In this document: positions 1,045 through 28,842 of the stretch, piece by piece
Position numbering within the stretch: the stretch's first letter is position 1
Layout of the letters: each line of letters opens with the position of its first letter
Source of the DNA: a virus
Length of the DNA: 30,759 nucleotides
Virus record (IMG/VR): IMGVR_UViG_3300029893_000047
Coordinates: 1 to 30,759 of that record
Strand: one strand, 5' to 3'
The notes under the pieces: model-generated
Told to the model about the DNA's origin: nothing
Databases searched by the model: none
What the model saw: the letters and a program-made list of their open reading frames with translations, nothing else
Program-made: the position numbers and the translations under genes

Positions 1045-1704
1045 TCAGCTCCCCCTCATTGCAACGAGTCTGTCCAGGCCAAGCGCAATCTCCGTGACCT
1101 CCAGGCCGGGGAAGTCTGTCCGCAGTGAACACCCCGCGACTTCGAGGTCGCCCATGTGCCAGTCAACGGTGCGGCGCGAATAGTGCGGAAGCTCCGCAGC
1201 GTCACGCGCCTCGCCGCCATAGCGCGCAACGAGGGCCTGCACGGCTTCGCCCAGAAAGTCGGCCTTTGTGCCCGGGAGACAAAACAACTGAAATTCCATC
1301 TGCCAGAACTCGCGAAGCCGCAGCTTCGTGGCGCGCATCGTCTCGGCGTTCTTCTCGTTGCGGAAACTCTTACCGGCCTGCCAATAGCACAGCGGCAGAA
1401 TCTTGTGCCACTGGTTCTGCTGCGGCCAGTCGTGGCGGAACGCCTCGAACGTGCCGACCGTGGTCTCGGGGCGCAGGAACATCGTCTCGGACACCGGCAT
1501 CAGGTCGAACCCCGTCTCGACATGACTCTTGAGCATCTCGGCTGGCGTCAGGATTGGAGTCTCTACACGCTCCAAGCGAACGCGGGGATTCAGCGCCCTC
1601 CATGCGACTCCAAGCAGGGCCGGAATCTCTCGAATAAGCGCCTCGCGGGCCTCAATCTCAGCCTCGGTCCAGCGAACGGTGGCATTGGTGAATAGTGGAT
1701 GCAT
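1045..1704 (-). CDS. Class II aminoacyl-tRNA synthetase core, glycyl type, without anticodon-binding domain
   Basis: The 219 residues match the catalytic core of glycyl-tRNA synthetase. A motif 1-like segment ends E-T-P-I-L near residues 48-52. L-R-P-E-T at 77-81 corresponds to the GlyRS signature that recognises glycine. Motif 2 is F-R-N-E at 114-117, followed by R-L-R-E-F-W-Q-M-E at 129-137. G-D-L-E at 185-188 and R-T-D-F at 195-198 match the GlyRS segment before motif 3, which is G-L-D-R-L at 209-213. The motif 2 and motif 3 arginines that bind ATP are present. Full GlyRS proteins are more than twice as long; insertions and the C-terminal anticodon-binding domain are missing, so normal tRNA charging is doubtful. 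It could adenylate glycine or another small amino acid for a different acceptor, or act as a polymerase accessory factor (see findings). It follows the 71-aa gene by 5 bases, with only a weak G-rich ribosome-binding site. Confidence 0.85.
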   Translation of the reverse strand: MHPLFTNATVRWTEAEIEAREALIREIPALLGVAWRALNPRVRLERVETPILTPAEMLKSHVETGFDLMPVSETMFLRPETTVGTFEAFRHDWPQQNQWHKILPLCYWQAGKSFRNEKNAETMRATKLRLREFWQMEFQLFCLPGTKADFLGEAVQALVARYGGEARDAAELPHYSRRTVDWHMGDLEVAGCSLRTDFPGLEVTEIALGLDRLVAMRGS

Positions 1705-2190: not shown

Positions 2191-2382
2191 CTAAAATCCA
2201 GCTTCCAAGACTTTCCGCTCTTTGCGGATTGCCCGTCGTGCGATTTCGATTAGCTCAATGCAGTCACCGCAATGGACTTTGCCCAGCCATTGCTCTAGGG
2301 CGCTTTCAGGAACGCGAGCGACCGCCGCTGTAAGCAGGGCGTCCATTGTCGCGTTCACTTTGAGTGTGGCGTCTTTGCTCAT
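2191..2382 (-). CDS. Small hypothetical protein, 63 aa
   Basis: The ATG at 2382 overlaps the polymerase stop codon (ATGA), so translation is probably coupled to the polymerase, and a GGGAG lies about 10 bases upstream. The product is mostly helical and soluble, with C-G-D-C in the middle and a basic C-terminal helix (R-R-A-I-R-K-E-R-K). It is not recognised. A role near replication is inferred only from the overlap with the DNA polymerase gene. The stretch 2150-2190 between this gene and the next contains no clear terminator or promoter. Confidence 0.6.
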   Translation of the reverse strand: MSKDATLKVNATMDALLTAAVARVPESALEQWLGKVHCGDCIELIEIARRAIRKERKVLEAGF

Positions 2383-4262
2383 TTCTTCGGCTCCCAAGGA
2401 ATCAGTTTCCCGTTAGCGTCGTACACGGGTTCAGCATTCTTGTAGATTCGCGCCATAATCAGCGGCTCTGCCTTGACCGGAACATCGGTAACGTACCGCT
2501 GCATAGAGTGTACCATAACTTCGCCTAGTCGGCAAGCGGCTTCTGAAGCGCGCTCGATGGGGGCTTCTCCGATGATTTCATCATGCACAAACGCCGACAA
2601 GTAGCACCCGTACAAGGGGGAAGTCTTGCACACGCGCATCTCGCGGGCTACGTTCCACAAAGCTTCTTTGGCCCCATCGGCAGCGAGACCTTGAAAGAGC
2701 GTGTTGGCACCGTCGCAAAAGCCGCATCCGCCGCGCAGTCGCTTCGACACCATCTGGCAGACTTGCCAAGGGCCTTCGGCAGTATTCTCCGCAACGTAAT
2801 TGAAGTAGCGCCGCATCTCCGGGTAGGCCAGCAGCCAAGCGTTCTTGAGCGCTTGCGATTGCTCCAGAGTAATCGTAAGCCCGTAGCTGGCGCGAGCATA
2901 GGCAACGAACTTGGATGGACCCATTCCGCCGGGGTAGCCGAAGTTAGCAGCCTTGGACAATTGGCGCGCACCCTTTACTTCTGGAGAACTCTTGTTGCGG
3001 TACAAGTCCGCGTAGGGCCGATTGAGCAGCGCGGATGCCGTAACCAAGTGCAGGTCTTTGCCGGACTTGATAGCATCGGCCATCGCCGACTCGCCAAACA
3101 AATTCAACAGCACTTGCGACAGCGCACACAGTTCGATTTGCGAGTAGTCCGCTTCAATGAAGACATAGCCCTTGCGAGGAATGAAACACTCGCGAACACC
3201 CCCGCTCCTTGGCAATTGCTGGATGTTGGGGTTGGAGCAAGATGTCCTGCCGGTAGCTTTCAAGATGTCGTATCGTGGATGGATGCGCCCTGACACTCCA
3301 AGCCGAAGCACAGGCAAGAACGAAGTCAGCAATTTCTTTGTTTGGGCCATCTCGACCAACGCTTGGATAGCCGGGTCATCAATCAGCGACAGGGTATCCA
3401 CATCCGTGCGAACACATCCGGCAGGGTGGGCGTCCGTAGGAGCAGTACGCGGCGCGGCGCTACCCAAGAAACGCTCAACATCCCGCCGCAACAGAGTGGT
3501 ATATTGGGAGTCAGGGTCAGGTGCAGCATCGGCACCGAATAGCGTCTTGGTCTGACTGGCGCGGGAGACAAAATACTTGGACGCCGTTTTCTGCCAACTC
3601 TCGACGTCATTCTTCCATTTCTGGCCCAATTGGTTGACCATCTCGCCATCAGTCGTAAGTCCGTCCTCTGACATGAGTTGCAACGCCAGCGCCGCACGGA
3701 CTTGCTCATGCTCATTGACAAAGAATCCATTAGGCCCAACCGGAGCGCCTTGCTCTTCAGCTTGCGCCTGACGCACACGGAAAGGAACCATGACGTCCGC
3801 CGTGCAGTATTCGATTGCCGCTTTGGGCCATTGTTCCAGCGGAATGTTCTCGACTTCGTGAAACCGAAGCTGCCACGACTCCACGCCCTTCTGCATGGAT
3901 TCGTGAAGGTACTTCTGCGCCAGTGCCGACAGTCCGAACTTCGTATCGTCGGAATCCAAAGTACCCTTGGCGCAACGAAGAAGCTTCTCGCGCACAAAGG
4001 TATCGCTGACACGGTTATCTTGATACAACTGCCAGATTGGCAGTTTGAGCGGTTCAATGTTCTCGCTCAAGCACGCAAAGTCATACGAAATGTAATGCCC
4101 TACAAAAACAACGTCCTTCTGATGCAAAAGTCTCAAGAGGGTATCATAATTGGAACGCCCGACTTGGAGCAACTCAACCGCCCCTTCCGGCGTGCGCAAC
4201 GCGATGACCACGGGTTTCTTGGTGTGGATGTTTGACTCGATGTCAAGGACGCAGATTCTCAT
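2379..4262 (-). CDS. Family A DNA polymerase with 3'-5' exonuclease domain
   Basis: This replicative-type polymerase (627 aa from the ATG at 4262) synthesises phage DNA. The N-terminal DnaQ-like exonuclease shows D7-I-E9, a Y60-D61 pair and Y-C-T-A-D ending at D156. The polymerase domain has T-G-R-T-S-C near 337, motif A E-A-D-Y-S-Q-I-E with catalytic D372, motif B R433-x3-K437-x3-F441, and motif C H-D-E at 560-562. There is no 5'-nuclease domain, and the length fits phage polymerases. Phe at 441 is the residue type linked to discrimination against dideoxynucleotides in this family. Motif B continues G-Y-P-G-G instead of the usual G-x-x-Y-G, and motif A has I-E-L-C rather than I-E-L-R. A TTG three codons upstream is a possible alternative start, but the ATG lies where a leaderless transcript from 4270-4297 would begin. 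Small genes follow on the same strand. Confidence 0.96.
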   Translation of the reverse strand: MRICVLDIESNIHTKKPVVIALRTPEGAVELLQVGRSNYDTLLRLLHQKDVVFVGHYISYDFACLSENIEPLKLPIWQLYQDNRVSDTFVREKLLRCAKGTLDSDDTKFGLSALAQKYLHESMQKGVESWQLRFHEVENIPLEQWPKAAIEYCTADVMVPFRVRQAQAEEQGAPVGPNGFFVNEHEQVRAALALQLMSEDGLTTDGEMVNQLGQKWKNDVESWQKTASKYFVSRASQTKTLFGADAAPDPDSQYTTLLRRDVERFLGSAAPRTAPTDAHPAGCVRTDVDTLSLIDDPAIQALVEMAQTKKLLTSFLPVLRLGVSGRIHPRYDILKATGRTSCSNPNIQQLPRSGGVRECFIPRKGYVFIEADYSQIELCALSQVLLNLFGESAMADAIKSGKDLHLVTASALLNRPYADLYRNKSSPEVKGARQLSKAANFGYPGGMGPSKFVAYARASYGLTITLEQSQALKNAWLLAYPEMRRYFNYVAENTAEGPWQVCQMVSKRLRGGCGFCDGANTLFQGLAADGAKEALWNVAREMRVCKTSPLYGCYLSAFVHDEIIGEAPIERASEAACRLGEVMVHSMQRYVTDVPVKAEPLIMARIYKNAEPVYDANGKLIPWEPKK

Positions 4263-4269
4263 GCCGCCC

Positions 4270-4297
4270 AAGATACCATGCCGGTCAATCGTGTCAA
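4270..4297 (-). promoter_or_regulatory. Promoter of the DNA polymerase gene, probably leaderless
   Basis: On the minus strand, TTGACA is followed after 16 bases by TATCTT. The -10 ends 7 bases before the ATG at 4262, so the transcript should begin at or next to the start codon. No Shine-Dalgarno sequence fits between them. The -35 is a perfect consensus. Confidence 0.6.
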
Positions 4298-4309
4298 GAA
4301 AATTCGGTC

Positions 4310-4353
4310 AAAAGACAATTGGGGTCTTTGAAATACTAGCCGCCGCCCCAATT
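4310..4353 (-). terminator. Possible intrinsic terminator after the structured RNA
   Basis: The perfect 8-base arms AATTGGGG and CCCCAATT (4346-4353 and 4317-4324 on plus) are followed on the minus strand by GTCTTTT. The loop is about 21 bases and the T tract is short and interrupted, so this is a weak candidate. Its place between the RNA and the polymerase promoter is what makes it attractive. Confidence 0.4.
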
Positions 4354-4454
4354 ACTATCTATCTAGTAGATTACAAGTCTAACTCGAATCTGGACGGTAG
4401 CGGCGTCGATGTGCAGTTCGCCGTCCGGCAAACTAGCCAGAATAGCGAACACAG

Positions 4455-4766
4455 CCGCTTATCTGCTGGAGAATTGGCGCGTGACTGGTCGAACCTGGCG
4501 TCGAATCCGTCCGTATAGCGGGCCGGATGGCATACAAGTAGCAGGGTCTCGTGTGTGGTCGGGTGTACCACTACGTCGGCTACATCTGCCTGCCGACATC
4601 CCTGAGGTTCGCGGCCCGAAGGCCCCCGGCGCTTCGCCTACCACTTTTGACGGCGCGCACTTGTACGCGGAGGCCGTTATCAGTGGTGTGTCCGGTCTTT
4701 AGGACCGGGTTGCGGCACGTCTTCACGTTTACATCTGAAAAGACCAGTCACTTCTCCAACAGCCGT
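4455..4766 (-). ncRNA. Candidate large structured noncoding RNA, about 300 nt
   Basis: The region between the leftward promoter and the polymerase has no convincing gene but folds strongly as a minus-strand RNA. Its ends pair: 4742-4751 with 4481-4490 (10 bp perfect) and 4752-4762 with 4463-4473 (11 bp with one wobble), separated by a 7-base bulge. Inside are hairpins at 4692-4708 (6 bp), 4650-4677 (ACGG/CCGT around CGCG/CGCG), 4628-4638, 4613-4624 (GGCC arms with a C-UUCG-G tetraloop), 4575-4597 (6 bp) and 4555-4571 (5 bp). A longer-range pairing, 4638-4646 with 4536-4544, competes with 4641-4645/4682-4686. Wobble pairs in the closing stem, in the long-range helix and at 4654-4669 are G-U only if minus is transcribed, and the UUCG loop also exists only on minus. 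It matches no tRNA, tmRNA, RNase P or 6S pattern that I know. A primary transcript could extend to about 4310. Confidence 0.72.
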
Positions 4767-4772
4767 GCATAA

Positions 4773-4801
4773 ATTATAGCACGCCCCAAACCCCTTGTCA
4801 A
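4773..4801 (-). promoter_or_regulatory. Strong leftward promoter driving the structured RNA
   Basis: On the minus strand, TTGACA and TATAAT are separated by 17 bases, a perfect sigma70 consensus. The -35 is preceded by TCAAT, giving the TCAATTTG extension shared with other promoters in the window. The predicted transcription start is near 4766, 4 bases before the first paired base of the RNA closing stem. Confidence 0.85.
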
Positions 4802-4830
4802 ATTGACCCTTTCCCCCTTGGGTCAATTTG
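4799..4830. promoter_or_regulatory. Palindromic operator-like element between divergent promoters
   Basis: Two perfect 11-base arms, CAAATTGACCC (4799-4809) and GGGTCAATTTG (4820-4830), are separated by 10 bases, so their centres are 21 bp (two helical turns) apart. Each arm overlaps the -35 region of one of two divergent promoters. This is the arrangement expected for a dimeric regulator controlling both directions, or for paired upstream elements. Confidence 0.65.
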
Positions 4831-4856
4831 TGAGCGGAAACGAATCATGGTACAAT
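4828..4856 (+). promoter_or_regulatory. Rightward promoter for the packaging and head operon
   Basis: TTGTGA is followed after 17 bases by TACAAT. The upstream GGGTCAA extension is shared with 7808. The -10 ends 6 bases before the ATG at 4863, implying a leaderless message. Confidence 0.75.
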
Positions 4857-4862
4857 GGTGCC

Positions 4863-5123
4863 ATGTTGAGTCCAGCGCAATGTGTTGAAATCGCACGCAA
4901 GTCCGTGTCTGCCGGAGACTGGGCGGACATTGTAGTGGCTGCTGTGAAGGAAGCCAAGGCCGGGGACAAGGCAGCCAGAGATTTTCTTTGCCGGTTCTGC
5001 TTGCCGGAAAAGATTGACGAAAACGTCGGGGAAGAATTGGCGCGAGTGCTGATTTTCCGCGAGGCTACCCAAGAAGATTTTGACCGCGCCAAGAAGGCAG
5101 ACGCCAGTGCTAAAGCCGGTTGA
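4863..5123 (+). CDS. Probable small terminase subunit, 86 aa
   Basis: The assignment rests on position directly before the large terminase gene, small size and a helical, charged composition; no helix-turn-helix is obvious. Small terminases recognise phage DNA for packaging. The sequence starts MLSPAQCVEIARKSVSAGDW and includes C-R-F-C near the middle and a Lys/Ala-rich tail. The ATG at 4863 lies 6 bases past a -10 element with no Shine-Dalgarno site, so it is probably translated from a leaderless transcript; an upstream TTG would place the start within the promoter and was rejected. Its 3' end overlaps the large terminase gene by 17 bases. It could instead be an unrelated small protein. Confidence 0.6.
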   Translation: MLSPAQCVEIARKSVSAGDWADIVVAAVKEAKAGDKAARDFLCRFCLPEKIDENVGEELARVLIFREATQEDFDRAKKADASAKAG

Positions 5124-6324
5124 ACAGGTTCTCTTGCCGACGCAGATGAGTGTGTGGCGGGACAAGTCTCCCGTCGTTTGCTATATTGGGGGTATCGGTA
5201 CGGGGAAATCGCACCTGCTCTCGATGTACGCGGCACGCGAGTCTCTGCAATACAAGAACAACCTTGGCATTATCGCGGCGGCTACGGCTCCCCAATTGAA
5301 GCTGTCCACCATTCCCACTTGCCGCAAAGTTTGGGACTCTGTCGGCCTTTGGTACTCCTACAAAGAATACAAGGCCACCGTAGAGTTTGCAAACGGCTCT
5401 TGGCTCAAGTTTCAATCACTGGACATTCCTGCCGGTGAACTGAAGGGTTCGGAACTGGGTTGGCTTGCCATTGACGAAGTGGATACTTGCGGCGAAGAGC
5501 ATGTGGAACGTCTTTGGGGCCGCGTGCGGCGTACCGGAGCCAGCCGTACCCAGCGGTACTTCGGAAACTCTCCGCCGCCCATGCACTGGGTCGAGAAGTG
5601 GTTTGCTCCGACAGAGATTGGGCGCAGGCCGATGGGCAAGCTGTATCAGGCCGCAACCTACGAAAACAAGTTCTTGCCCGATGACTACATTGCAGGGCTT
5701 GAACTGAAACACCCGCCCGGAACCCCAGGCCATGACCGCTTTCTGATGGGCAAGCTTGGCGTTGCTTTGGAAGGGGCCATCTACTTTGAGTTTGACCCCA
5801 AGACACACTTGATTCGTCGGGACCAAGTGCCGGAAGACGCCTGCTTGTTTGCTTACGGTCTTGACCTTGGACACCATCACCCGACCGTGTTTCTTGTCGG
5901 GGCGCTTTCTACGGACGATACCCTGTATATCGTTGCGGAACACTGCTCTTCGACAATGCTCTTGCGTGACCACGCGGAGCGCATCAAAGCTCTTTATCGC
6001 GGCGGCCCCATATTCAGTGACCACGACGCGCAGGACCGTTTTGAATTGCAAGCTCTTGGCATCACGACGATTCCGGCGAACAAGGATGTTGCCGAAGGAA
6101 TCCAGAACGTCAAGACTCGGTTGCGTAGTGGAAAGCTGAAGATTGTCGGGGAAGCTTGCCCCAGGCTCGTTTCAGAGTTTCCTTTCTACCGTTGGGGCAA
6201 GGACGAAGCTCCGGTGAAGATAAACGACGATGCTTTGGACAGTCTCCGGTACTTGATAAACGGTTTGGATGCTACCAGTGCAACGGATGATTTGGTCATC
6301 GCTGCGCTTAAGGAGAACGTATGA
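5107..6324 (+). CDS. terL: Large terminase subunit (packaging ATPase and nuclease)
   Basis: This motor pumps DNA into the prohead and cuts concatemers. From GTG 5107 (405 aa), the ATPase shows Walker A G-G-I-G-T-G-K-S at 28-35 and Walker B W-L-A-I-D-E-V-D near 119-126. The C-terminal RNase H-like nuclease shows G-L-D-L-G with Asp 253, F-S-D-H-D-A-Q-D near 303-310 and N-D-D-A-L-D near 373-378, supplying the acidic metal ligands. The length is normal. I chose GTG 5107 because AAGG lies about 8 bases upstream; TTG 5080 and ATG 5146 are alternatives. It overlaps the preceding gene and its stop overlaps the portal start (ATGA), so the three are translationally linked. Confidence 0.93.
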   Translation: MLKPVEQVLLPTQMSVWRDKSPVVCYIGGIGTGKSHLLSMYAARESLQYKNNLGIIAAATAPQLKLSTIPTCRKVWDSVGLWYSYKEYKATVEFANGSWLKFQSLDIPAGELKGSELGWLAIDEVDTCGEEHVERLWGRVRRTGASRTQRYFGNSPPPMHWVEKWFAPTEIGRRPMGKLYQAATYENKFLPDDYIAGLELKHPPGTPGHDRFLMGKLGVALEGAIYFEFDPKTHLIRRDQVPEDACLFAYGLDLGHHHPTVFLVGALSTDDTLYIVAEHCSSTMLLRDHAERIKALYRGGPIFSDHDAQDRFELQALGITTIPANKDVAEGIQNVKTRLRSGKLKIVGEACPRLVSEFPFYRWGKDEAPVKINDDALDSLRYLINGLDATSATDDLVIAALKENV

Positions 6325-7763
6325 ACATCAATCCTTTTTCGTGGTTTCGCTCCAAGCCTGCTACGGACAAAACTTCATCGTTGCGCGAGGCTCCAGACCT
6401 TCCTCCGCGCAGGGGCAGTCTGTATCTGTCCGGTGCTTACAGCTTCCCGTCTTTTCCTGACCCCATCGTTACGCTGGATGCTCGCGCCTACGAAAACATC
6501 CGGCGCACTGACGTTGTTGCCCAGCCCGTGAACAAGCTTGCGCGCAAAGTGGGCATGTTCCATCTTGTGGCTGTCGGTAAAGGCAAGCGCAGGGATGCTA
6601 TCCAGAACATCTGCAATCATGTTCGCGGACTGGGGGACATTCTGGAGTTCATGACTTGGGCCATTGTGGAAGGCGTGCGCTTCTCTTGGGTCAAGGGTTA
6701 CTGGACGGGCACGTTTTACGCCCCGGACCTTCGCGGCTGCGGGCGCTTGAAGAAGAATGCCGGAGGGGCCTATTCGTGGAATGGCTTTGACTACAGCGAG
6801 TCCGGCGAGGGCGACGTGGTCAAAGTCGAAGAGTCCTACATGTCCTATGGCGAGTCCGAACAAGCCAAGCGTCAAGCCAAGACTCTTGACCGCTCTCGCG
6901 TGATTGTGTTTCGTCCGGGCGCAGGCCACAATCCCGAAGGTGACTTGGACATCGGATACCAGTTGTTTCTGGTTGCCGAAGCGGCACGGGAACTGGACCA
7001 TGCCCAGCGAACTTACACTGACCGTCACGCTCTGCCCAAGCAAGTCATTCGCAAGATGATGGACAAGCTGCGTCCTGACGAAGTGGACAATGTGCTGGCT
7101 ACGGCTGCTGACCGTATGCGGGTAGCCAATGCTCGCCAAGTCATGGCAATGAGTTCCGGTGACTTGCTGGAGTATCTGGAGCCCAAGGGCACCACGTTTG
7201 ACTTCCTGCTTCAGTACCGTCGCCAGTTGGAAGAGCGTGCCAGCAAGATTGTTACGGACGAATTTATCACGACGATGGGCAGTCAGTCCCCGTCCCAGTC
7301 TTCCAAGTCGGGCGAAGACTTGTTCAACGTGGCGGCGTTTACCGTGGCACGCAAGCTTTCGGAGCCCATCTCTGACACCCTGCTGGCACTGATGGAACGT
7401 TGGAACCCCCACTACTTGCCTGCCTACGAAGCGGGCGAGCCGCCGATTTATCTGGAGCTTCGCCCCATTTCTGCCCGTACCAAGCTGTCTGTGGGTGAGA
7501 TGGTTCAAGTCATGGACCGGGAGTACCCGCTGCCTACGGATTGGATTTGTGAGAACTTGGGTTGTGAGCGTGACCCTTCGCTGCCGGATTTCTTTGTTGG
7601 AAAGAAGCCTTCGGGGTTCGACTCTTTCGGCAAGAATCCGTCGCAAGTACCGCCTACTACGGAGCAGGGTGGTCAAGGCCGCGTAGACAGGCACGGGGAA
7701 GAGTCTGGCGCTCAACCTCCACGGAATCCGGCAGAGGACGCAAGAAACCTGCCAAAGCCGTAA
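6321..7763 (+). CDS. Portal protein
   Basis: The portal is the dodecameric ring at the capsid vertex through which DNA enters and leaves. The identification rests on order (immediately after the large terminase and before protease/scaffold), size (480 aa) and composition: a mixed alpha/beta body with a long helix-rich region near residues 220-350 (R-Q-L-E-E-R-A-S-K-I-V and neighbours) and a Pro/Gly/Gln-rich disordered tail. Segments such as L-D-R-S-R-V-I-V-F-R-P-G and L-A-L-M-E-R-W-N-P fit phage portals of the DUF935/SPP1-like range, but I cannot name the subfamily. Its ATG at 6321 overlaps the terminase stop. Confidence 0.8.
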   Translation: MNINPFSWFRSKPATDKTSSLREAPDLPPRRGSLYLSGAYSFPSFPDPIVTLDARAYENIRRTDVVAQPVNKLARKVGMFHLVAVGKGKRRDAIQNICNHVRGLGDILEFMTWAIVEGVRFSWVKGYWTGTFYAPDLRGCGRLKKNAGGAYSWNGFDYSESGEGDVVKVEESYMSYGESEQAKRQAKTLDRSRVIVFRPGAGHNPEGDLDIGYQLFLVAEAARELDHAQRTYTDRHALPKQVIRKMMDKLRPDEVDNVLATAADRMRVANARQVMAMSSGDLLEYLEPKGTTFDFLLQYRRQLEERASKIVTDEFITTMGSQSPSQSSKSGEDLFNVAAFTVARKLSEPISDTLLALMERWNPHYLPAYEAGEPPIYLELRPISARTKLSVGEMVQVMDREYPLPTDWICENLGCERDPSLPDFFVGKKPSGFDSFGKNPSQVPPTTEQGGQGRVDRHGEESGAQPPRNPAEDARNLPKP

Positions 7764-7781: not shown

Positions 7782-7807
7782 GTTACAAGCCGTTTGAAGG
7801 GGTCAAT

Positions 7808-7836
7808 TTGCACGCTGTTTGCAGTTCTGGTACAAT
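7808..7836 (+). promoter_or_regulatory. Promoter for the capsid operon
   Basis: TTGCAC and TACAAT are separated by 17 bases, preceded by GGGGTCAA as at 4823-4830. The predicted start near 7843 leaves a leader of about 30 bases with a GGAG before GTG 7876. Confidence 0.75.
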
Positions 7837-7875
7837 TATAGCACGCAAAAGTTCGATGTCAAGCCCGGAGTCATT

Positions 7876-9848: not shown

Positions 9849-10829
9849 ATGGCCGTTGCTGCCAACACGACTGTTCAAGCCCAGCTTCGTCCCGAACTGG
9901 GTGCGTCACTGATGGAGTGGGACAATGAGGCCGCAGAACGCGGCATGGTGGGGTCGCTGCTCCTGCGTCCCAAAGCCGTGCCCGTCCAGAGTGGCGTCAT
10001 CGGCGTGGTGTCTCTCGAAGAGATGATGAAGGACAGCGTGGTGACTGACCGTGCCAGCAACGGCGGGTATGGCCGCTCTGACACGAAGTTCACCAACTTC
10101 TCCTTCTCGACCCAGGAGTTCGGTCATGAAGAAGTCATCTCTGACCGCGATGCCCGACTCTACGCGATGTATCTGGATGCGGAGATTGCGGCTGCCAGCC
10201 GTATCCGTGGCATCCTGATGCGTCGGCTGGAGAAGGAGATTCTGGACGCGCTGGGTAACACCGGCACCTTTGCCAACACTGGCGCGGGTGCCGTGTGGAC
10301 GGCGGCTGGTACGGACGTGCTGACGGACGTTCGGACGCAGTCCCTTGCGGTGCGCGATGCTTGCGGTATGGAACCCGACACGCTGCTGATTGGCATGAAG
10401 GTGTTCCGTGCCCTGCTCCAGAACACGGCTATCATCGACCGCATGAAGTATTGGGGCGGGGATGACCCCAAGGTCGGCTCGATGAAGGCGAACGCCGGTC
10501 TGCTGGCTCGCGCTTTGGGCATTGACCGCGTGGTGGTTGCGGGCATGATGCGCAATTCCGCCAAGGAAGGTCAGAGCCGCTCTCTGGCGAGCATTTGGGA
10601 CGAAACCAAGGCTGGCTTCTACGTCACGGCGAAGACCGATGACATCAAGGAGCCCTGCGTTGGTCGTAACTTCGTCTGGACGCTGGATGGGGCCAACCCT
10701 GACGGCTCTGTGGTGTTCGAGTCCTACCGTGAAGAGCGTGAGCGCGGCACGGTGATTCGCGGTCGCCACGAATCCGGCATCAAGATTTTCTACGCAAGCT
10801 GCGGTCGGATTCTCACGTCGGTCAGCTAG
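9849..10829 (+). CDS. Major capsid protein
   Basis: The 326-aa product is the probable shell subunit. Evidence is position after protease/scaffold and cement genes, size, absence of membrane or enzymatic motifs, a strong AAAAGGAG ribosome-binding site and optimal-looking codons as expected for the most abundant protein. The sequence has an N-terminal helix-rich arm, an E-F-G-H-E-E-V-I-S-D-R-D-A-R segment near residues 90-103, a long helix (A-S-R-I-R-G-I-L-M-R-R-L-E-K-E-I-L-D-A-L) near 115-134 and a beta-rich end with C-G-R-I-L-T. This pattern fits the HK97-fold capsid group, but the subfamily is not recognised. Confidence 0.8.
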   Translation: MAVAANTTVQAQLRPELGASLMEWDNEAAERGMVGSLLLRPKAVPVQSGVIGVVSLEEMMKDSVVTDRASNGGYGRSDTKFTNFSFSTQEFGHEEVISDRDARLYAMYLDAEIAAASRIRGILMRRLEKEILDALGNTGTFANTGAGAVWTAAGTDVLTDVRTQSLAVRDACGMEPDTLLIGMKVFRALLQNTAIIDRMKYWGGDDPKVGSMKANAGLLARALGIDRVVVAGMMRNSAKEGQSRSLASIWDETKAGFYVTAKTDDIKEPCVGRNFVWTLDGANPDGSVVFESYREERERGTVIRGRHESGIKIFYASCGRILTSVS

Positions 10830-20909: not shown

Positions 20910-20932
20910 GGTCAAGCGTCACAAGCATCAAT

Positions 20933-20960
20933 TTGTAAATCCGCCAGCCTGTGTTACAAT
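20933..20960 (+). promoter_or_regulatory. Promoter of the tail fibre gene, leaderless
   Basis: TTGTAA and TACAAT are 16 bases apart, with ATCAA before the -35. The -10 ends 7 bases before the ATG at 20968, leaving no room for a functional Shine-Dalgarno site. Confidence 0.65.
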
Positions 20961-23559: not shown

Positions 23560-24333
23560 ATGCGCGGATACGGATATGGCTATCGAATGGGGCGGAAGCG
23601 CAAGAGTCGGGCCGTGGCCGCTCCCGGCACTTGGTCAGAGCAACTGCGGGAAATCGCGACATTCCCAGTCATCTGGTCCTTGGACGATGAGTCCATGCGC
23701 ACGGTGACCGGCAGCGACGTGGACACGCTCAAAGAGACCGGCGGCGACACCCGCTTTGACATGGCCTATGTCTCCGGTACCAAGCCGACTGTCGGGACCC
23801 GCGACGGCATCAGCGTGATTAAGGAGAACGCGGCATCGGTCGTTTTCCGCGCCGGGACCAGCGGAAAAATGAGCAACCTGTGGCCCTCGGGCAAGGGAAC
23901 GCTTTATGTCGCAGGCTGGTTCAAGTACGTGGCCTTTGGCGCAGTTTTCTTCCGCTCGGGCGACGGCGTCTCATGGGGCTATGAAGTGTCCACGGCCGGC
24001 CTGAGCAGCAACGTGCAGCCAAGAGCCTACCTGTGGGACGGCGGGGCCGGGCGCACGGCGCTGTCGCCGGACAATGCTGGAGAAGGCTGGCACCAGATGT
24101 GCGTCAAAGTCGACGCGACGAACCTGACGCTCTACGTCGATGGCGTGCAGAAAGCCCAGGTCAGCTCCGGCGGCGGCATCGGCTACCTGGACGGCGTCTT
24201 CCGACTGTTTTTTCAGAGCATCGGCCACGAAATCGCGGTGATGGCGTTTTCCGCCGACAACGCCGCGCACAACGACACGCTGCGGGGGCAGGTCGAGGAC
24301 AAGCTGCGCGAACTGATTGCGGCGCTGCCGTAA
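23560..24333 (+). CDS. LamG/concanavalin-like fold protein, probable fibre-tip lectin
   Basis: The 257-aa protein has a basic, Tyr/Gly-rich start (M-R-G-Y-G-Y-G-Y-R-M-G-R-K-R-K-S-R) and a C-terminal region typical of LamG/concanavalin A-like jelly rolls: G-T-L-Y-V-A-G-W-F-K-Y-V, then G-W-H-Q-M-C-V-K-V-D-A-T-N-L-T-L-Y-V-D-G-V-Q-K-A. It starts 9 bases after the fibre gene behind a GGGGGA site, so it is probably a co-expressed receptor-binding protein. It shares the GC-rich codon pattern of the distal fibre. No signal peptide is seen. Confidence 0.65.
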   Translation: MRGYGYGYRMGRKRKSRAVAAPGTWSEQLREIATFPVIWSLDDESMRTVTGSDVDTLKETGGDTRFDMAYVSGTKPTVGTRDGISVIKENAASVVFRAGTSGKMSNLWPSGKGTLYVAGWFKYVAFGAVFFRSGDGVSWGYEVSTAGLSSNVQPRAYLWDGGAGRTALSPDNAGEGWHQMCVKVDATNLTLYVDGVQKAQVSSGGGIGYLDGVFRLFFQSIGHEIAVMAFSADNAAHNDTLRGQVEDKLRELIAALP

Positions 24334-24340
24334 GCTCAAT

Positions 24341-24368
24341 TTGCACTGAATCTGTTCCGTGATACAAT
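24341..24368 (+). promoter_or_regulatory. Promoter for the 24393-28439 gene group
   Basis: TTGCAC and TACAAT are 16 bases apart, preceded by CTCAA of the TCAATTTG extension. It begins within 8 bases of the preceding stop. The transcript leader contains AAAGGATT ahead of the ATG at 24393. Confidence 0.65.
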
Positions 24369-28439: not shown

Positions 28440-28468
28440 CACACGGATGCCGCTAGTAGGGTAGTGAA

Positions 28469-28510
28469 ACGGACGGGGAGAGTCGAGCCAGTACGGTCGG
28501 CTCTTCTTGT
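28469..28510 (+). repeat. First copy of a repeated terminator element
   Basis: Eighteen bases (28469-28486, beginning ACGGACGGGG) recur exactly at 28750-28767, and CTCTTCTTGT (28501-28510) recurs exactly at 28780-28789. The part in between differs but keeps the potential to pair. This is a repeated, structured unit, one copy before and one after the candidate RNA at 28599-28790. Confidence 0.8.
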
Positions 28511-28513
28511 TTT
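28485..28513 (+). terminator. Intrinsic terminator after the SSB-like gene
   Basis: GAGCC (28485-28489) pairs with GGCTC (28499-28503), followed directly by TTCTTGTTTT. The stem is short (5 bp) with extension possible, but the T-rich tail is good. It ends the 24341 transcript 46 bases after the last gene. Confidence 0.55.
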
Positions 28514-28564
28514 AGGTGCAAGTGTCGGCAGAGCAACGTGTTATGTTGCGGTAGCTGGGTCAAT

Positions 28565-28593
28565 TTGCAGCGCGTTCTGAAAAATGGTATAGT
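28565..28593 (+). promoter_or_regulatory. Promoter for the second candidate RNA
   Basis: TTGCAG and TATAGT are 17 bases apart, with GGTCAA completing the TCAATTTG extension shared by five other promoters. It lies in a stretch without protein genes. Confidence 0.68.
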
Positions 28594-28601
28594 GAGTGAC
28601 G

Positions 28602-28637
28602 GGGCGAGTATGGGCGAGTATGGGCGAGTATGGGCGC
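28602..28637 (+). repeat. Tandem 10-bp repeat at the RNA 5' end
   Basis: GGGCGAGTAT occurs three times in a row (28602-28611, 28612-28621, 28622-28631), followed by GGGCGC of a partial fourth copy. The repeat begins right at the predicted transcript start, suggesting a binding site for a protein or a copy-number variable region. Confidence 0.9.
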
Positions 28638-28759
28638 AAATAGCCACTACTTGCCGCTATTGCCACGCGCCGGGCCAGCTTTCGGCCCACTGCGCCGCTC
28701 CCCCGCTCTTTGGTGCCGCTGACGCGGCACAGCGGTCGGAGACGGCTGGACGGACGGGG

Positions 28760-28790
28760 AGAGTCGAACCTGCCGGTGACTCTTCTTGTG
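28760..28790 (+). terminator. Terminator at the end of the second candidate RNA
   Basis: AGAGTC (28760-28765) pairs with GACTCT (28778-28783), with an inner ACC/GGT pair and a TGCC loop, followed by TCTTGTG. It is the second copy of the element at 28469-28510. The T tract is interrupted, so efficiency may be moderate. Confidence 0.5.
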
Positions 28791-28808
28791 CATCGCGTAA
28801 GCGGGCAC

Positions 28809-28836
28809 TTGACACGCCCGTTGGGCGTGGTACAAT
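28809..28836 (+). promoter_or_regulatory. Promoter of the 28843-29852 group, leaderless
   Basis: TTGACA and TACAAT are 16 bases apart. The -10 ends 6 bases before the ATG at 28843, and no Shine-Dalgarno sequence lies between them. Confidence 0.8.
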
Positions 28837-28842
28837 ACGACC

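Follow-up and report, generated by a model that had tools for sequence, protein, structure and literature searches.

A gene-free gap between polA and the terminase operon

Does the 600-nt gap between the family A DNA polymerase gene (polA) and the terminase operon, which is the largest stretch without genes in the annotated part of this genome, encode an RNA of its own? The gap lies in a 30,759-bp IMG/VR record, analyzed here in full (referred to below as the window), from a tailed phage whose relatives are all distant. With a probability that we put at roughly 0.5, the region encodes an independently transcribed phage noncoding RNA, here called RNA1. The second-largest gene-free gap (402 nt) has the same promoter type and another structured transcript candidate, called RNA2. 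The coordinates of both, together with the promoters and genes around them, are collected in Table 1.

Computed codon statistics reject all reading frames across the polA-terminase gap, in agreement with the preliminary description, which saw no convincing protein gene at 4455-4766. Open reading frames of the gap score from -0.13 to -0.58 bits/codon, versus +0.09 to +0.41 in real genes. A coding gene in 4371-4772 was likewise rejected, every open reading frame there being noncoding by codon score and without Pfam matches. ARAGORN found no tRNA or tmRNA in the 30.8-kb window. As a separate observation, positions 1045-1704 (minus strand), downstream of polA, encode a 219-amino-acid protein with a class II aminoacyl-tRNA synthetase core (Pfam tRNA-synt_2b, E value of 1e-8) and about 38% identity to Caulobacter jumbo phage proteins. 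The pairing of such a protein with polA recalls, speculatively, the accessory subunit of mitochondrial polymerase gamma.

Table 1. Genes, promoters and predicted RNA elements of the window
Feature	Position	Strand	Basis or remark
Family A DNA polymerase gene (polA), neighbor of RNA1	2379..4262	minus	
Weak terminator-like hairpin AAUUGGGG...CCCCAAUU, then GUCUUUUG	4309..4353	minus	sequence
polA promoter TTGACA-16-TATCTT	4270..4297	minus	leaderless geometry
RNA1, predicted noncoding transcript	4310..4766	minus	12/12 promoter; fold; no coding-like frame
Closing stem, 5' strand (11 + 10 nt)	4742..4762	minus	pair probability 0.99-1.0
Closing stem, 3' strand, including 7-nt bulge 4474-4480	4463..4490	minus	
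Hairpin CCGGUC-cuaaa-GACCGG	4692..4708	minus	probability 1.00
Long hairpin ACCACU...ACGGC...GCCGU...AGUGGU	4640..4687	minus	
Hairpin GGCG-aag-CGCC	4628..4638	minus	
Hairpin with C-UUCG-G tetraloop (tetraloop 4616-4621)	4611..4626	minus	
3' domain closed by GAACCU/AGGUUC, with inner hairpins	4491..4610	minus	probabilities 0.41-0.99
P-RNA1, GGGTCAATTTG-N20-TATAAT	4773..4809	minus	TTGACA -35; extended TG -10
P-ter, GGGTCAATTTG-N20-TACAAT	4820..4856	plus	-10 ends 6 nt before ATG 4863
Small gene (86 aa) in terminase small subunit position	begins 4863	plus	
Block of small gene and terminase large subunit (TerL)	4863..6324	plus	
Terminase	5110-6321	plus	
Portal-like gene	6321-7760	plus	
Third exact promoter copy	7800..7836	plus	before gene ending 9096
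Major capsid	9849-10826	plus	
Weaker promoter copy	20925..20960	plus	at ATG 20968 (860-aa gene); leaderless geometry
Weaker promoter copy	24333..24368	plus	ahead of 24.4-28.4 kb block (polymerase exonuclease subunit, Sak4-like annealing protein)
Polymerase exonuclease subunit and Sak4-like protein	25.8-27.8 kb		
Terminator-like hairpin copy 1, upstream of P-RNA2	28469..28512	plus	
P-RNA2, fourth exact promoter copy, GGGTCAATTTG-N20-TATAGT	28557..28593	plus	
RNA2, second gene-free structured transcript candidate	28599..28793	plus	fold z; noncoding
Terminator-like hairpin copy 2, RNA2 3' end	28750..28793	plus	

The RNA1 promoter is one of a phage-internal family

The core of P-RNA1, TTGACA-17-TATAAT (4801..4773, minus strand; also written GGGTCAATTTGACA-N17-TATAAT), is exact at 12/12 positions, which confirms the perfect promoter of the preliminary description. 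Its expected start, 4766, is 4 nt outside the stem that closes RNA1. P-RNA1 is not an isolated sigma70 match and belongs to a promoter family internal to the phage. The motif GGGTCAATTTG-N20-TAYART has four exact copies in the phage (P-RNA1, 4820+ at the terminase operon, 7800+ at the head gene block, and 28557+), compared with 0.08 expected even when 3 mismatches are allowed. Weaker members (24333+, 20925+, and possibly 12323+) each precede a gene block, and the six best members of the family have TCAATTTG and TGnTAyAaT (with the extended TG -10) in common. The other copies would serve the terminase, head, tail, and recombination genes as well as the RNA2 candidate. Because P-RNA1 is part of this common family, RNA1 is tied to the regulation of the virion operons and others. 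A further site, TTGACA-16-TATAAT at 7834-7862 (minus strand), is a second perfect promoter-like site of this strand; it has the 13-mer GCGTGCTATAATT in common with P-RNA1, overlaps the plus-strand promoter copy at 7800, and is directed into the portal gene in antisense orientation.

P-RNA1 and P-ter stand head-to-head, and a palindrome (4799-4830) straddles both -35 regions. We dropped this palindrome as a dedicated operator, as it consists of the two promoter elements placed head-to-head. More generally, the gap might act as DNA, with its hairpins or inverted repeats serving as a packaging start site, a single-strand origin, or an operator, and it does adjoin the terminase genes. However, the promoter elements that account for the palindrome also occur singly at 7800 and 28557, and the minus strand folds better than the plus strand (see below), which leaves a DNA-level element very unlikely.

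The cumulative GC-skew minimum, at 4817, also falls between the divergent promoters. Like ColE1 RNA II, RNA1 would be a structured transcript that starts where the GC skew switches, on a replicon with a gene for a PolA-type polymerase; the locus could then be a replication origin, with RNA1 as a primer or pre-primer that reads toward polA, either in the manner of RNA II or as in transcript-primed phage origins. In contrast to the ColE1 case, the skew switch here is also explained by the divergent genes, which by themselves give a minimum at this place in a contig that may be incomplete, and RNA1 has no Rfam match. We regard an origin or primer function as quite improbable.

Predicted fold of RNA1

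As an independent transcript, RNA1 would begin at about 4766 and end either at about 4455, soon past the closing stem, or at about 4310, at a weak terminator-like hairpin. Its fold, which was predicted from the single sequence, contains the 21-bp stem that had been proposed to join the ends of the region, here as an outer helix of 11 bp with one G-U (4752-4762 with 4463-4473) and an inner helix of 10 bp, all Watson-Crick (4742-4751 with 4481-4490), split by a 7-nt bulge. About six internal hairpins are present, as had been described, including the one with the C-UUCG-G tetraloop. The preliminary description had also placed G-U pairs in both the inner helices and the closing stem; the inner helices do carry them, but the closing stem has just one rather than several. 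Among the inner hairpins of the 3' domain, those at 4555-4571 and 4505-4528 are well supported and the others less so. The 5' closing strand, GUGACUGGUCUUU, can instead pair with AAAGACCGGACAC, located 38 nt downstream (4688-4751, minus strand), and it is possible that this alternative pairing constitutes a co-transcriptional switch.

On the minus strand, the fold of 4463-4762 is more stable than those of its shuffles (z = -4.7), none of 300 being as good, whereas the plus-strand fold of the same interval has a z of -2.45 and is matched by 4/300. The longer minus-strand region 4290-4767 has a z of -3.7. Among about 194 nonoverlapping 320-nt windows of the contig, the RNA1 region ranks fifth, with some coding windows ahead of it. 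Elsewhere in the phage, the interior of the capsid gene (9921-10240) has z values of -4.2 and -3.5 on the two strands, both well below shuffles.

Without its closing stem, the interior of RNA1 is marginal (z = -1.8; 9/300 shuffles as good), and the stability beyond shuffles stems mainly from that stem. Chance alone is expected to produce a split helix of 21 bp at some place in 30 kb (Markov maxima of 19 to 23). For these two reasons, the structural claim depends on the stem being anchored at the RNA start. When the start is fixed, the duplex of the 5' end is equalled in 11 of 3,000 shuffles and at 14 of 1,010 other genome positions (1.4%); thus, the start-anchored stem beats chance, though not overwhelmingly. 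The same numbers can be drawn on for a different account, in which the promoter is genuine but the structure reflects chance plus ordinary inverted repeats and the transcript has no structured function. The marginal interior and the chance level of split stems and of anchored complementarity speak for it, while the z value of the whole domain, the strand bias, the way the stem fits the start of the transcript, and the 600 nt without coding speak against it, and we consider it unlikely. With a dedicated promoter and a fold more stable than its shuffles, RNA1 has two of the features expected generically of a structured noncoding phage RNA.

Independence of RNA1 from polA

The next gene on the same strand as RNA1 is polA, and two terminator scans identified no strong terminator downstream of RNA1. 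The polA mRNA could begin with RNA1 as a long 5' leader that acts in cis as an attenuator, a stability element, or a protein-binding leader. A terminator-like hairpin had been described at this point, and one exists (8 bp, 4346-4353 with 4317-4324, with a 21-nt loop and the tail GUCUUUUG), but it is weak and was reported by neither scan. The separate polymerase promoter that had been placed after it is present at 4297..4270; it matches at 10/12 positions with a perfect TTGACA, and its -10 element, TATCTT, ends 7 nt ahead of the ATG at 4262.

The polA start shares this geometry with three other operon starts. At 4262, 4863, 20968, and 28843, the -10 element ends 6 to 7 nt before the ATG, which holds for 4/25 starts as against 1.4% of ATGs overall; Shine-Dalgarno sites precede many of the other genes. 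The arrangement suggests leaderless mRNAs at the four operon starts. No Shine-Dalgarno sequence was found before polA, and a long leader would therefore be of no help to its translation; polA probably has a leaderless mRNA of its own. The pattern resembles one described for Deinococcus-Thermus (PMC12340547), and by this likeness it may hint at the host.

Since polA has its own promoter in a leaderless position, RNA1 is more likely to be an independent RNA than a polA leader. RNA1 also differs from T-box and other leader riboswitches, having no match to an Rfam leader or riboswitch family, T-box included, and only the weak terminator-like hairpin. A cis-acting polA leader is thus an improbable account of the region. 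The earlier view of RNA1 as an independent minus-strand unit is backed by the strand bias of the fold, by a promoter type common to other units, and by the separate, leaderless-type promoter of polA.

A second candidate RNA

P-RNA2 faces the 402-nt gene-free gap (28440-28842), in which the RNA2 region is noncoding. The fold of 28599-28800 has a z of -3.43, or -2.6 when the last hairpin is left out. The order of the locus is hairpin, promoter, RNA, hairpin, and the two hairpins are copies that differ within the stem, where U-G in one is U-A in the other. Three 10-nt tandem repeats (28602-28636) are also found in this gap. Base pairing between RNA1 and RNA2 was considered and found unconvincing, with 11/300 simple shuffles as good.

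Search for relatives

An Rfam search, which the preliminary description had proposed as a check, gave no credible family match. With Rfam 15 there was no match in the window at the gathering threshold, and at E values of up to 10 nothing credible appeared, GOLLD, ROOL, and OLE being unmatched in 4250-4880. No homologue of RNA1 was found by blastn in phages and plasmids, nor by nhmmer, in GTDB, or in IMG/VR by protein, profile, RNA motif, and promoter motif scans, a result that is not proof of uniqueness. The terminase, polA, capsid, and exonuclease proteins have matches in IMG/VR, and polA in GTDB, that are only 25 to 48% identical, and none of these is accompanied by RNA1. The exact pattern of the RNA1 3' end has no match in IMG/VR.

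The promoter motif was found in 20 IMG/VR contigs, compared with about 28 by chance (a rough estimate), and kinship amounts to marginal terminase matches in two. In GTDB, the head-to-head promoter motif has five matches, which are without convincing protein kin and resemble inverted repeats belonging to other elements. When a covariance model made from the one RNA1 sequence was run over about 1.5 Mb of distant relatives, the only match was RNA1 itself. Upstream of a related polA there is a 667-nt gap, which is unstructured (z = +0.5) and was rejected as a counterpart of RNA1.

Comparison with known phage RNAs

GOLLD and ROOL are commonly located near tRNA islands, whereas the 30.8-kb window around RNA1 has none. 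RNA1 is also smaller than GOLLD (over 800 nt) and is without an Rfam match; judged by Rfam, it does not appear to be a member of either family. The likeness is in kind only, GOLLD and ROOL being large, noncoding, structured RNAs borne by phages or prophages, with functions that are unexplained (PMC12286853). GOLLD expression goes up during lysis (PMC12286853).

A packaging RNA (pRNA) as in phi29 was among the roles first suggested, and RNA1 does resemble pRNA in lying near the packaging genes, here adjoining the terminase genes, and in having their promoter type. In phi29 pRNA systems, the packaging ATPase has a vestigial nuclease domain. In contrast, TerL here keeps this domain (Terminase_6N plus Terminase_6C), with the aspartates of the RNase H-like C-terminal part conserved (D252, D304/D306, and D377), and the phage, with its family A polymerase, is not phi29-like. 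RNA1 would be 300 to 457 nt, versus 174 nt for pRNA, and has no Rfam pRNA match; furthermore, pRNA has been described as occurring only in phi29-like phages (PMC11476376). Above all because TerL keeps its nuclease aspartates, a phi29-type packaging function is extremely unlikely.

Proposed mode of action and implications

For RNA1 as an independent noncoding RNA, the computations show the promoter family, the fold bias, and the lack of coding; we infer that it is transcribed, stable, separate from polA, and active in trans, and we propose the following course of events. Host RNA polymerase would initiate on the minus strand near 4766, and a factor from the phage or the host would probably assist it by recognizing GGGTCAATTTG, which lies immediately upstream of the -35 element and overlaps it. 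In the resulting transcript of 300 to 457 nt, the 5' end would pair with sequence about 280 nt downstream to give a closed, multihairpin molecule that is presumably exonuclease resistant. The same promoter type would drive the terminase, head, tail, and recombination operons and RNA2, so that RNA1 levels would rise together with expression of the virion genes, and the folded RNA would act in trans. The likeliest mode of action would be binding to a host or phage protein or ribonucleoprotein.

More tentatively, and at well below even odds, RNA1 and RNA2 may be the founding members of two new families of phage noncoding RNAs that belong to the phage's own promoter regulon, beside the terminase and capsid genes; RNA1, from the best-matching promoter, would then be made abundantly in the lytic cycle, as a structural RNA or as one directed at the host.

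If real, RNA1 would be an addition to the few large structured RNAs known from phages, most of which are of unclear function. It is unusually testable: with a defined promoter family in a compact genome, one can predict when RNA1 should appear in relation to terminase and capsid. In addition, the motif of this family has led to a second RNA candidate and offers a route to further units in related phages.
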